In this document: in pieces, positions 40,751-57,344 of the stretch | Position numbering within the stretch: the first letter of the stretch is position 1 | Layout: every line of letters starts with the position of its first letter | Source: Phycisphaerales bacterium | GTDB taxonomy: Bacteria; Planctomycetota; Phycisphaerae; Phycisphaerales; UBA1924 | Assembly (NCBI GenBank): GCA_035627955.1 | Contig: DASPKU010000022.1 | Coordinates: 1-64,000 of the forward strand | DNA: 64,000 nt | Direction: 5' to 3' | The notes under the pieces: model-generated | Told to the model about the DNA's origin: nothing | The model's input: the letters and a program-made list of their open reading frames with translations, nothing else | Database searches by the model: none | Position numbers and translations under genes: made by a program

Positions 40751-41323
40751 GTGGGCGTTCTTTGTGACAGGCAGATCCGGCAGCTGGTGAAGATCACCCC
40801 CTTCGAGGAGGCGGTGAAGCGCCCCGGCAAGATCTCCTACGGCGTCTCCAGCTACGGCTACGACGTCCGCGTCGGCACCCACTTCAAGATCTTCACCGCC
40901 ACGCCACGCACCGGCGGCATCACCGTCGTCGACCCCAAGCGCTTCAGCGACGACCTCATGGTCGAGATCGACACCGCGAAGATCCACGCCGACCACATCA
41001 TCATCCCCCCGCACAGCTTCGCCCTGTGCGAGACCGTCGAATACCTCGAGGTCCCGCGCGACGTGCTCGTCATCTGTGTCGGCAAGAGCACCTACGCCCG
41101 CTGCGGCCTCATCGTGAACGTCACGCCCCTCGAGCCCGAGTGGCGCGGCAAGGTCACGCTCGAAATCTCCAACACCACGCCCCTCCCGGCGCGGGTGTAC
41201 GCCAACGAGGGCATCGCCCAGTTCGTGTTCCTCAAAGCGGACCAGGTCTGTGAGAAGTCGTACGCGGACAAGGGCGGCAAGTACCAGGACCAGGGCGGGC
41301 TGACGCTCCCCAGGGTTGATTGA
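40751..41323 (+). CDS. dcd: dCTP deaminase
   Basis: Deaminates dCTP to dUTP for dTMP synthesis. [47 protein letters not shown] (catalytic Glu and structural Arg regions), [13 protein letters not shown] and [12 protein letters not shown] match the family. GTG 40751, just after AAGGGTGG, gives 190 residues, the family length. It lies next to nrdJ, so both deoxynucleotide supply genes are together, apart from an inserted inverted-repeat unit. Confidence 0.95.
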
Positions 41324-41326
41324 ACG

Positions 41327-41780
41327 TTAGAAGAAGGCATCGAGGCAGCAAGGCATAAGGCATCGAGGCGTGAGTGTCCGACCCGATCAAGTCATATCAG
41401 GACCTCGTGGCATGGCAACGGGCCTTCACACTTGGAAAAGCGCTTTACGCCCTCTCGGGGAAGTTCCCCGACGGAGAGCGGTTCGGGCTGATGAACGCGG
41501 TGCGTCGGGGCGCCTACACGGTTGCGAGCCACATCGCTCAGGGCTATGGGCGAGGCAACACACACGACTATGTCTGGTTCCTCAAGCAGGCACGCGGCGA
41601 ACTCTACCAGCTCGACACTCAGCTCCTCTTTGCACTCGACTTCAAGTACATCTCCGACGACGAGCATCGAAGAGTGAAGCAGCAGTTGGATGAAGCCGAA
41701 CGCGTTCTCGCAGGATTGATCAGGAGTCTGGGCGGCTAACTCGGTGCCTTGGTGCCTCATGCCTCGGTGCCTTCTTCTAA
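41327..41780. mobile_element. Inverted-repeat unit carrying a four-helix-bundle gene
   Basis: The left end TTAGAAGAAGGCATCGAGGC (41327 on) and the right end, read from 41780 on the minus strand (TTAGAAGAAGGCACCGAGGC), match at 19 of 20 bases. The similarity continues imperfectly to about 40 bp on each side in tandem AAGGCA(T/C)CGAGG-like units. The 454-bp unit starts 4 bp after the dcd stop, ends 17 bp before the nrdJ start, and encloses one gene with no spare sequence. No target-site duplication could be recognised. Confidence 0.7.
41374..41739 (+). CDS. Four-helix-bundle protein (23S rRNA intervening-sequence/S23 family)
   Basis: 121 residues from GTG 41374. SYQDLVAWQRAFTLGKALY, FGLMNAVRRGAYTVASHIAQGYGR, YVWFLKQARGELYQLDTQLL and VKQQLDEAERVLAGLIRSL correspond to the four helices and the invariant R-x-A-x-S-x-x-x-N/Q-I-A-E/Q-G region of the family. 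These proteins are encoded in intervening sequences of 23S rRNA in some bacteria and also occur singly in genomes; the Avd proteins of diversity-generating retroelements share the fold. Biochemical role unknown. Flanked by inverted repeats. Confidence 0.9.
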   Translation: MSDPIKSYQDLVAWQRAFTLGKALYALSGKFPDGERFGLMNAVRRGAYTVASHIAQGYGRGNTHDYVWFLKQARGELYQLDTQLLFALDFKYISDDEHRRVKQQLDEAERVLAGLIRSLGG

Positions 41781-41796
41781 GTTTCAAGGCGGCAGT

Positions 41797-44700
41797 ATGA
41801 AGATCACACGCAAGTTCACCACGGCTGGCAACGACCCCTTCGCTTCGGTCAAGTGGGTCACCCGCTCCTCCAAGATCACCAACCCCGATGGCTCCATCGT
41901 CTTCGAGATGAAGGACGCCGAGGTGCCGGAGAGCTGGTCCCAGCTCGCCACCGACATCATGGTGAGCAAGTACTTCCGCAAGGCCGGCGTGCCCGTGCGC
42001 GACGCCGCGGGGGCGCAGCTCAAGGATGACAAGGGCAAGCCCGTCACCCGCGGCGAGAAGTCCGCCCGTGAGGTCATCCACCGCCTCGCCGGCTGCTGGC
42101 GCTACTGGGGCGAGACCCACGGCTACTTCGACACCGCGCAGGACGCTCAGGCGTTCTACGACGAGCTCGCCTACATGATGGTGCACCAGATGTGCGCCCC
42201 CAACAGCCCGCAGTGGTTCAACACCGGGCTCAACTTCGCCTACGGCATCACCGGCCCCGCGCAGGGCCACTGGATCGTCAACCCCAAGACGGGCGAGCCC
42301 GAACTCGCGGATGACGCCTACACCCACCCGCAGCCCCACGCCTGCTTCATCCAGAGCGTGAGCGACGACCTCGTCAACGAGGGCGGCATCATGGACCTGT
42401 GGGTCCGCGAGGCACGCCTCTTCAAGTACGGCTCGGGCACCGGCACCAACTTCAGCAACCTCCGCGGCGAGGGCGAGAAGCTCTCCGGCGGCGGCAAGTC
42501 CTCCGGCCTCATGTCCTGGCTCCGCATCGGCGACCGGGCCGCGTCGGCCATCAAGTCCGGCGGCACCACCCGGCGCGCCGCCAAGATGGTCTGCCTCGAC
42601 ATGGACCACCCCGACATCCAGGACTTCATCAACTGGAAGGTCCGCGAGGAGATCAAGGTGCAGGCGATGGTGGAGGGGCTCAAGCTCCTCAAGAAGCACA
42701 ACAAGGACATCGCCGAGCAGGCCGACAAGTACGACCTCAAGCTCGACTACGACTTCAACGGTGAGGCCTATCAGACGGTCGCCGGCCAGAACAGCAACAA
42801 CTCCGTCCGCATTCCCGATTCCTTCTTCGAGGCCGTGGACCAGAACGCCGACTGGGTCACGCACTTCCGAACTAACCCCAGCAAGACCAAGAGCTACAAG
42901 GCCCAGGAACTCTGGGACGACATCGGCTTCGCCGCGTGGCGGTGTGCCGACCCCGGCGTGCAGTTCGACAGCACCATCAACGCCTGGCACACCTGCCCCA
43001 ATGGCGGCCGCATCAACGCCAGCAACCCGTGCTCCGAGTACATGTTCCTCGACAACACGGCCTGCAACCTCGCATCGCTGAACGTTCTCAAGTTCTACGA
43101 CGCCCAGAAGCGCACCTTCGACATCGCTGCCTACGAGCACGGCATCGACCTGTGGACGATGGTGCTGGAGATCAGCGTCCTCATGGCCGCGTTCCCCAGC
43201 CGCGAGATCGCCGAACTGAGCTACAAGTACCGCACGCTGGGGCTGGGCTACGCCAACCTCGGCGCCATGCTCATGCAGGCGGGCATCCCCTACGACAGCG
43301 ACGAGGGTCGGGCCGTGTGCGCCGTGCTCTCCGCCATCCTCACCGGCCGCAGCTACCGCATGTCGGCCCTCATGGCCGGCGAGCACGGCGCCTTCCCCGG
43401 CTACCACGCCGACAAGGACAACATGCTGCGGGTCATCCGCAATCACCGCCTCGCGGCGATGGGCGAGGCCCGCAGCTCCAAGAAGTATGAAGCCCTGAAG
43501 ATCACGCCCGTCCCCACCGACCACGCGATCTTCAAGGCCGGCAAGGTGAACATCGCCAATAGCAAGGACCTCCTCGCCCACTCCGTCAAGGCCTGGGATG
43601 ACGCCCTCAGCCTCGGCGAGAAGCACGGCTACCGCAACGCCCAGACCACGGTGATCGCGCCGACGGGCACCATTGGCCTGCTGATGGACTGCGACACCAC
43701 AGGCGTCGAGCCCGACTTCGCGCTCGTCAAGTTCAAGAAGCTCGCCGGCGGCGGCTACTTCAAAATCGCCAACGAGAGCGTCCGCCCCGCCCTCAAGGCC
43801 CTGGGCTACAGCGACGCACAGGTCAAGGACATCATGGAGTACATCCTCGGCACCCTCAGCCTGGATGTCCCCGTCCCCGGTTCCGCCCGCAACGAGACTC
43901 TGAACGGGTTCCTCAAGAGCAAGGGGCTCTCCGATGCTGATCTCGAGAAGATCTCTGACACTCTGCCGGGCGTGTTTGAACTCTCCTTCGCGTTCTCGGC
44001 GTGGGGGCTCTCCGACGTGGCGCTCAAGGCGTGCGGCGTGGACCCCATGGCGGCCAAGGCCGACCCATCCTTCAACCTCCTCAGCGCGCTCGGCCTGACC
44101 GCCCAGCAGATCGAGGAGCTCAACCTCACCATCTGCGGCACCTCCACCATCGAGGGCGCCCCGCACCTCAGGCCCGAGCACCTGCCCGTCTTCGACTGTG
44201 CCAACAAGTGCGGCAAGCGCGGCCAGCGCTTCATCCACCCGCACGGCCACATCAAGATGATGGCCGCGGCTCAGCCGTTCATCAGCGGCGCCATCAGCAA
44301 GACCATCAATCTCCCCAATGAGGCGAGCGTGCAGGACATCAAGGACTGCTACCGCCTCTCGTGGGAACTGGGCCTCAAGGCCAACGCACTCTACCGCGAC
44401 GGCTGCAAGCTCAGCCAGCCGCTCTCCGCCACCGCCGACGAGGCGAAGAAGGAGGCCGGCAAGGCTGAGGCCGTGATCGACACGGCCGTCAAGAAAGTTG
44501 GGCAGGACCTGGAACCATCCTCCTCAACGAAGGCGGCCTCGGCTGGGCCGGTCCCCGCCGCATCGGCCCCTGTGGCGACGCAGGGTGCGAAGTTTGAGCT
44601 CCCTGGAATCACGGCGGAGGTCAAGCCGCGGGCCCAGCGCCGCCGCCTGCCCGACACGCGCCTGAGCAAGACGCACAAGTTCAACGTCGCCGGCCACGAG

Positions 44701-45336
44701 GGCTACCTCACCGTCGGCCTCTATGAGGACGGCCAGCCCGGCGAGCTGTTCATCACCATGAGCAAGGAAGGCTCCACGATCGGCGGCCTGATGGACAGCC
44801 TGGGCACCGCCACCAGCGTCGCCCTCCAGTACGGCGTGCCCATCAGCAGCCTGGTCACCAAGTTCAGCCACCAGCGCTTCGAGCCCGCGGGGATGACCGA
44901 GAACCGCGACATCCCCTTCGCCAAGAGCCTGGTCGACTACATCTTCCGCTGGCTGGGCATGGAGTTCATCCCCGGCTACCGCGAGAACAACTCGCCCCGC
45001 GCCATCGCGGAGGCGGCAAACGGACACACACCCGAGGAGAAGGCATGGAAGACATCCGAGCGCGTCTCGATCGTCCCGCCTGTCACGGACCGTCCTCACG
45101 CTGGGGACGGGTCGAAGAAGCCCGGTCAGGCTGGGGAGGTGATGAGCACGCCCGCGATCGTGATGAAGGAGACGCTCACCATCACGGAGACGGTGGGGGG
45201 CCTCGCGAGCACGCTCTCGATCGCGATGGAGAGCATCAGCGACGCGCCCGCGTGTGACGTGTGCGGCACCATCACGGTCCGCAACGGCACCTGCTACAAG
45301 TGCGTCAACTGCGGCAACAGCATGGGCTGCAGCTGA
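41797..45336 (+). CDS. nrdJ: Adenosylcobalamin-dependent (class II) ribonucleotide reductase
   Basis: Makes deoxyribonucleotides with a B12 radical. 1,179 residues: the catalytic barrel has MMVHQMCAPNSPQWFNTG, GSGTGTNFSNLRGEGE, NPCSEYMFLDNTACNLASLN (active-site N-x-C-x-E), and TVIAPTGTIGLLMDCDTTGVEP. A flexible Ala-rich linker (about 880-950) leads to a TSCPD domain (THKFNVAGHEGYLTVGLYED) and a C-terminal Cys cluster CDVCG...CYKCVNCG, which regenerates the active-site disulfide. The start is ATG 41797 after AAGGCGG. No cobalamin riboswitch is seen. It needs no oxygen. Confidence 0.96.
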   Translation: MKITRKFTTAGNDPFASVKWVTRSSKITNPDGSIVFEMKDAEVPESWSQLATDIMVSKYFRKAGVPVRDAAGAQLKDDKGKPVTRGEKSAREVIHRLAGCWRYWGETHGYFDTAQDAQAFYDELAYMMVHQMCAPNSPQWFNTGLNFAYGITGPAQGHWIVNPKTGEPELADDAYTHPQPHACFIQSVSDDLVNEGGIMDLWVREARLFKYGSGTGTNFSNLRGEGEKLSGGGKSSGLMSWLRIGDRAASAIKSGGTTRRAAKMVCLDMDHPDIQDFINWKVREEIKVQAMVEGLKLLKKHNKDIAEQADKYDLKLDYDFNGEAYQTVAGQNSNNSVRIPDSFFEAVDQNADWVTHFRTNPSKTKSYKAQELWDDIGFAAWRCADPGVQFDSTINAWHTCPNGGRINASNPCSEYMFLDNTACNLASLNVLKFYDAQKRTFDIAAYEHGIDLWTMVLEISVLMAAFPSREIAELSYKYRTLGLGYANLGAMLMQAGIPYDSDEGRAVCAVLSAILTGRSYRMSALMAGEHGAFPGYHADKDNMLRVIRNHRLAAMGEARSSKKYEALKITPVPTDHAIFKAGKVNIANSKDLLAHSVKAWDDALSLGEKHGYRNAQTTVIAPTGTIGLLMDCDTTGVEPDFALVKFKKLAGGGYFKIANESVRPALKALGYSDAQVKDIMEYILGTLSLDVPVPGSARNETLNGFLKSKGLSDADLEKISDTLPGVFELSFAFSAWGLSDVALKACGVDPMAAKADPSFNLLSALGLTAQQIEELNLTICGTSTIEGAPHLRPEHLPVFDCANKCGKRGQRFIHPHGHIKMMAAAQPFISGAISKTINLPNEASVQDIKDCYRLSWELGLKANALYRDGCKLSQPLSATADEAKKEAGKAEAVIDTAVKKVGQDLEPSSSTKAASAGPVPAASAPVATQGAKFELPGITAEVKPRAQRRRLPDTRLSKTHKFNVAGHEGYLTVGLYEDGQPGELFITMSKEGSTIGGLMDSLGTATSVALQYGVPISSLVTKFSHQRFEPAGMTENRDIPFAKSLVDYIFRWLGMEFIPGYRENNSPRAIAEAANGHTPEEKAWKTSERVSIVPPVTDRPHAGDGSKKPGQAGEVMSTPAIVMKETLTITETVGGLASTLSIAMESISDAPACDVCGTITVRNGTCYKCVNCGNSMGCS

Positions 45337-57161: not shown

Positions 57162-57236
<75 letters not shown>

Positions 57237-57292: not shown

Positions 57293-57332
57293 GCCTCGAT
57301 GCCTTGGCGCCTCCTGCCCTGATGCCTCTCTT
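57293..57332. repeat. Solo terminus related to the four-helix-bundle element
   Basis: GCCTCGATGCCTTGGCGCCT and the next 20 bp match the right end of the unit at 41327-41780 at about 27 of 33 aligned positions. No gene and no opposite end accompany it. It lies between the tRNA-Pro terminator and the TetR gene. Confidence 0.55.
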
Positions 57333-57344
57333 CCACCCGCCCTT

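Follow-up and report, generated by a model that had tools for sequence, protein, structure and literature searches.

The genomes compared here suggest that short genes of the S23 / 23S rRNA IVP family, one of which lies between dcd and nrdJ in a planctomycete genome of the order Phycisphaerales, belong to a class of probably mobile elements. Each element consists of a single S23 gene between inverted arms made of tandem 7- or 8-mers, and the S23 protein would spread both the unit and gene-less copies of its arms. Four observations carry this reading: a common architecture, the presence or absence of units at otherwise near-identical sites, the dispersal of gene-less arms, and the co-variation of the arm motif with arrays elsewhere in the genome. 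From these observations, we infer that S23 acts on the arms.

Architecture of the S23 unit between dcd and nrdJ

The window, i.e., the whole 64,000-nt stretch of DNA analyzed, contains the following features.

40754..41323, + strand: flanking dcd, given as its match region plus the stop codon at which the unit starts
41327..41369, + strand: left arm module, an array of AAGGCATCGAGGC-type 8-mers in tandem (the inverted repeat itself spans 41320-41367)
41374..41739, + strand: S23 / 23S rRNA IVP family gene, 121 aa, GTG start, matching PF05635, TIGR02436, and XCC0516 (2gsc)
41740..41787, - strand: right arm module, an inverted copy of the left arm that pairs with it in the RNA fold
41797..45336, + strand: flanking nrdJ (ribonucleotide reductase), downstream of the unit
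57293..57335, - strand: gene-less solo copy of the window unit's arm, just past a tRNA gene and a terminator-like hairpin

An earlier sequence-only reading had described a unit of about 454 bp with inverted tandem-repeat ends (41327-41780), starting right after the dcd stop and enclosing an S23/intervening-sequence gene, and all three points were confirmed. The arms (41320-41367 and 41740-41787) are 48 nt long, 77% complementary, and 372 nt apart. Both are tandem 8-mer arrays of AAGGCAYCGAGGCA-like units, and the exact 13-mer AAGGCATCGAGGC occurs at 41334 and 41357. The arm score was 21.5, whereas none of 1000 dinucleotide shuffles exceeded 11.0, and in the RNA fold of the unit, the arms formed one long stem enclosing the gene (z = -5.75). 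The left arm starts about 4-9 nt beyond the dcd stop, and its innermost GAGG (41365-41368) can act as a ribosome-binding site for S23, which is the sole gene inside the unit; no IS transposase is present in it. On the minus strand, a 952-aa open frame (41392-44250) runs antisense to S23 and nrdJ and is most likely a GC-rich shadow ORF.

The protein is a member of the S23 / 23S rRNA IVP family: in profile searches, it scored 85 bits against PF05635 (curated cut-off, 33.8) and 75.8 bits against TIGR02436 (curated cut-off, 24). It departs from the family at two nearly invariant positions (N47H and E50Q). Sequence searches found a single relative with a solved structure, XCC0516 of Xanthomonas campestris (2gsc, E 2e-18), which is a homopentameric ring (PMC4990558). 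The likeness to Avd that had been suggested earlier held only in part. The fold is a related helical bundle and the Avd profiles matched weakly, but the link is distant, with both Avd models below their cut-offs (23.7 bits against 40, and 29.6 bits against 80). Profiles other than S23 and these weak Avd models did not match, including that of the Y1/HUH (TnpA_REP) transposase, and profile searches recognized no nuclease or polymerase domain. At the limit used, no relative was found in phage records.

Inverted 7- and 8-mer arms at S23 loci

Inverted arms were found at 163 of 209 S23 loci pooled from many phyla; this pool includes 30 Xanthomonadaceae loci and some orthologues, so that the loci are not all independent. 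The period was 7 or 8 in 155 of the armed loci (119 loci with a best lag of 7 and 36 with one of 8), the G-rich strand pointed inward in 156 of the 163, and the median number of units per arm was 5.4. Among related genomes, 71 of 94 loci were armed above the threshold, which 3.9% of mismatched pairs also passed, and 53 of 73 loci across bacteria and some archaea were armed (null, 1.4%). Inverted arrays were present at 11 of 12 plasmid loci, 11 of these loci being cyanobacterial and one from Azospirillum. About one-fifth of the S23 loci lacked arms by the method used. In the loci examined, which span many phyla, S23 was the only gene seen between the arms.

The comparison of flanks around other S23 genes, which the sequence-only reading had proposed, revealed a common architecture but not a common arm sequence, as every unit is built on a 7- or 8-mer of its own. 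The arms are complementary even though their letters vary from unit to unit, indicating that pairing and period, rather than letters, are kept. Two candidate common denominators were rejected: a single arm sequence for all units, because the arms differ even among units of one genome, and G-quadruplexes, because many arms (e.g., TTAGCTG and AGTCAGG) have no G-runs.

Many bacterial genomes have more tandem heptamers than expected (PMC4692102, PMC4679880), and short tandem repeats might therefore flank S23 by accident or through low complexity. We consider this scarcely credible. The window arm score lies far above those of the 1000 shuffles, arms recur across phyla, and a control with windows shifted by ~1 kb in the same loci gave arms in 11 of 492 cases, none of them with lag 7 or 8, compared with 95 of 123 at S23 itself, 91 of them with lag 7 or 8.

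Gene-less arms and the dcd-nrdJ locus in relatives

The search of the source genome for further ends, also proposed from the sequence, did find them, and the window unit is not alone there: six S23-like genes, three of which score above the curated cut-off, each adjoin inverted short-repeat arrays, and dozens of gene-less arm copies are dispersed over the genome. The repeat differs per unit (AAGGCATCGAGG in the window unit, GGAGTGAC in L001, and AAAGTGAAAATGG in L003). For the window-arm family, a strict pattern for the ~44-bp gene-less copies gave 13 matches, one of which was the unit itself, and its reversed control gave none. Dispersed arm copies with low E-values were also found for four of the five other S23 genes. 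The solo arms often sit directly past stop codons or terminators. In the window, a tRNA gene (57162-57235) is followed by a terminator-like hairpin with a T-run and then by the solo arm at 57293-57335, and the solo arms L010 and L017 are likewise downstream of terminators. Three longer, divergent S23-like ORFs of this genome (L004, L005, and L006; open frames of 186-224 aa) fall below the cut-off, and the inverted short-repeat arrays adjoining them are in part compact hairpins that flank the gene on one side.

Among relatives, S23 genes with related arms lie between dcd and nrdJ in G011, G013, and G017, and also in G003, where the gene is broken by a frameshift. Meanwhile, G025 has a sister S23 with 7-mer arms at this junction, G004 has an unrelated S23, and G023 has a distant S23 beside an (AGACGGC)n array. 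The junction has no S23 in G002, G006, G010, G021, and G022, in which dcd and nrdJ are 39-132 bp apart. The earlier proposal to look here for an empty site was thus answered in two ways: several relatives lack S23, but the window copy seems to have descended together with its locus and not to be a recent insertion, and S23s 65-69% identical to it, with related arms, occupy the same junction in three other genera. For the window copy, dN was well below dS. From the S23 tree, only strongly supported local groupings were used. Within the family sample, window-type solo arms occurred only in G000, G003, G011, G013, G017, G025, and, once, G029, i.e., almost only in genomes having such an S23. The gene and the arm family thus look co-inherited in this group.

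Filled and empty sites

The view that units of this class live outside rRNA and insert was supported on plasmids up to 97.8% identical, where filled and empty sites can be compared directly. The unit on plasmid C of Trichormus variabilis is exactly absent from the 97.8% identical conjugative plasmids of other Nostocales (Nostoc linckia, N. carneum, and others). The empty junction reads AAAAA[GTAATTAA]CAAAT, and the filled junction reads AAAAA[GTAATAAA]-unit-[GTAATTAA]CAAAT. At the same junction, a plasmid of Nostoc C052 has a decayed remnant, reduced to the left arm plus the beginning of the gene. Further filled/empty pairs were found for Nostoc C052 pD, ATCC 53789 pNsp_c (at the adjacent junction in that operon), Nostoc MS1, Picosynechococcus PCC 7003 versus 7002 (in a CRISPR operon), and Calothrix versus N. 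carneum. In six filled/empty pairs examined for target-site duplication, two showed duplications, of 8 bp with one mismatch and of 7 bp, and the others were unclear. A non-exhaustive look found no ends matching those of an IS in the loci covered. The insertion sites are operon junctions, often within or beside a stop codon, a placement that may be explained by selection against harmful insertions. The arrays change length by whole units, the Trichormus and Scytonema copies differing by exactly two heptamers.

Gene-less inverted arm pairs are also present or absent between related Nostocales plasmids, at a neighboring junction. One such pair, at the orf321/orf441 junction of a Nostoc C052 plasmid (L185, 21-370), is apparently nested in the loop of another. 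The movement of gene-less pairs with the same arms shows that S23 is dispensable in cis, and raises the alternative that the arms are MITE-like ends moved in trans by an unrelated transposase or reverse transcriptase, with S23 as a cargo that has some other role and no action on the arms. The lack of a recognized nuclease or polymerase domain in S23 fits such an arrangement, and so does the fact that these Nostocales plasmids also carry TnpB and group II intron genes. However, S23 is the sole gene seen between arms of unrelated sequence in loci from many phyla, and a single cargo so widely kept would be unlikely; furthermore, the motif of dispersed arrays tracks the arm motif of the S23 unit. 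We therefore regard a passive S23 as unlikely and prefer a role of S23 itself in the spread.

Units L174, L177, and L373 occur within CRISPR operons, in the orders cas10-S23-cmr3 and cas6-S23-cas4. A published list of CRISPR-linked proteins includes 23S rRNA IVP (PMC10910872), but the cas10-cmr3 junction has no S23 in Picosynechococcus PCC 7002, so that the published link may reflect passive insertion. Nucleotide-metabolism junctions also recur, as nrdB-S23-nrdA in Nostoc edaphicum (L172) and dcd-S23-nrdJ in the window. Units L218, L219, and L222 of Xanthomonadaceae/Rhodanobacter follow an apparent accB, judged from the upstream C-terminus. Function should thus be assigned by association with caution, as S23 genes found in operons for CRISPR or nucleotide metabolism have likely inserted there.

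Co-variation of S23 arms and genome-wide arrays in Xanthomonadaceae

Xanthomonas genomes contain about 185 GGGAATC arrays, including 70-75 convergent pairs, the role of which was left unexplained (PMC4692102). In X. vasicola, we found GGGAATC arms on both sides of the XCC0516 orthologue. Across 99 Xanthomonadaceae genomes, 2474 GGGAWTC array sites were counted in the 44 genomes with S23 and 76 in the 55 without it. At least 25 sites were present in 25 of the 44 and in none of the 55 (Fisher p 8e-12, with genomes treated as independent despite their kinship). The genome was array-rich at 13 of 14 S23 loci with GGGAWTC-type arms, compared with 6 of 16 loci with other arms (p 0.002). In two Rhodanobacter genomes, the arms differ in one base (GGGATTC and GGGAATC), and the same base differs genome-wide.

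The arm-motif rule was then used to predict array motifs, which were counted in the genomes. Predicted GGGACNS sites numbered 280, 179, 88, and 7 in the four genomes with such S23 arms; of six GGGAWTC genomes, five had 0-3. Predicted GTGAWTC sites numbered 321, 29, and 25 in the three genomes with arms of that type, and 12 of 13 others had none. There were three exceptions: G107 has matching GGGACNS arms and only the 7 sites; G111 has two S23 genes and three motifs; and the xanthomonad genome G072 has 108 GGGACNS sites with no S23 found at E 1e-8, representing a recent loss of S23, an assembly gap, or a counter-example. An outer TGARGCC and an inner GGAAAAGC are common to the dispersed arrays and the arms of the S23 unit itself. 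Of 40 dispersed-array places sampled, 16 were convergent pairs. Because the genome counts are not phylogenetically independent, S23 and the arrays may simply be co-inherited.

In this family, S23 is a single-copy gene at a conserved locus with dN/dS values of 0.03-0.20. Such purifying selection is also what would be expected if slippage-born arrays were regulatory or transcript-processing signals bound by S23 as a host protein, the likeness between arms and arrays being due to gene conversion and not to spread. The change of array length by whole units, as between Trichormus and Scytonema, and the location of published arrays in transcribed intergenic regions (PMC4692102) point in the same direction. 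In contrast, slippage is not what placed whole units and gene-less pairs cleanly at new plasmid sites, or a unit in 23S rRNA (see below), and the arrays carry the outer and inner motifs with them. A pure host function is accordingly quite unlikely in our judgment, and we retain spread by S23 as the preferred explanation.

Link to 23S rRNA intervening sequences and a possible mechanism

The S23 unit of Azospirillum lipoferum (L179) is located within a 23S rRNA gene and has arms that are heptamer arrays. The unit stands in place of a 19-nt hairpin tip, which another rrn copy of this strain retains intact between flanks that are 100% identical over 793 and 735 bp. A screen of nineteen other S23 loci placed none of them in rRNA. 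In the intervening sequence (IVS) of Coxiella, tandem GACAGAT heptamers vary in number by strain, and a 28-bp terminal stem is cut by RNase III (PMC4990558). The Azospirillum unit and the Coxiella heptamers therefore place the rRNA elements and the intergenic units in one architectural class, in agreement with the kinship to 23S intervening sequences that the sequence-only reading had pointed out.

We propose that the S23 protein, a homopentameric ring in Xanthomonas, recognizes the arm hairpin mainly through repeat period and fold, and less through the actual letters. As each arm typically has 5-6 units and the ring is pentameric, one repeat unit per subunit would be a guess. S23 may help to spread its own unit and, in trans, the gene-less arm modules, as RAYT does for REPINs. 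By the precedent of the 23S IVSs, the long arm stem might let RNase III excise the unit from polycistronic mRNA or rRNA, so that a unit inserted at an operon junction or in an rRNA loop would do almost no harm. In many hosts, such as Xanthomonadaceae and probably those with the dcd-nrdJ unit, S23 is now a resident gene, vertically inherited under purifying selection, and the motif of its arms drifts along with the arrays elsewhere in the genome.

A broader proposition, which we advance tentatively and hold to be possible rather than probable, is that S23 is an unrecognized machinery of intragenomic repeat spread, unrelated to known transposases, in which the pentamer reads a 7-/8-nt period and copies the unit and its arms, many heptamer arrays and 23S IVSs being its products. 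We know of no catalytic domain in S23. The association gives a family with a solved structure but no assigned function a concrete partner, the inverted heptamer arms, and joins three puzzles, namely the 23S intervening sequences, the heptamer arrays (GGGAATC of Xanthomonas and probably those of cyanobacteria), and stray four-helix-bundle genes in operons. It also makes the origin of heptamer arrays directly testable through the removal of one small gene.

Comparison with known systems

The class of tiny S23 elements is apparently undescribed: the open-access literature, to which the search was confined, contained no report tying S23 to heptamer arms outside rRNA or to dispersed arrays. Published work on heptamer arrays (PMC4692102, PMC4679880) neither connects them with S23 nor associates them with mobile elements. 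Of the arrays described in Xanthomonas and Nostoc (PMC4692102), TAACTGA of Beggiatoaceae (PMC4679880), and the cyanobacterial STRR, only those of Xanthomonas are tied to S23 here, GGGAATC being the same as the arm motif of the local S23 unit; our Nostocales comparison covered plasmids, and the GGGGAYT arrays of Nostoc thus stand outside the match. The Avd proteins of diversity-generating retroelements share a related helical-bundle fold, but their profiles stay below the cut-off.

The 23S IVSs with an S23 ORF, as in Coxiella and Leptospira (PMC4990558), resemble the window unit in their length of 400-500 nt, their S23 ORF, and their terminal inverted repeats, which form a long stem around the ORF. 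Unlike them, the window unit lies between two protein genes and not inside a 23S rRNA gene, a location seen in the related Azospirillum unit; and dispersed gene-less arms matching a unit's own arms are not described for IVSs in the open literature searched.

The REPIN-RAYT system (PMC3116915, PMC8049555) is similar in having a resident, mostly single-copy gene that is flanked by its own repeat, vertically inherited, and under purifying selection, together with hundreds of short dispersed repeats, many of them inverted pairs, whose type tracks the gene type. The S23 units share both the flanking by an associated repeat and the dispersed, type-tracking repeats, with G072 as an exception. They differ in that S23 is a four-helix bundle and not a Y1/HUH transposase, and in that the repeat is a tandem 7/8-mer array, whereas a REPIN is a tagged palindrome. 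As far as the genomes show, the window unit is therefore a free-standing relative of the 23S intervening sequences that works like REPIN-RAYT with an unrelated protein.
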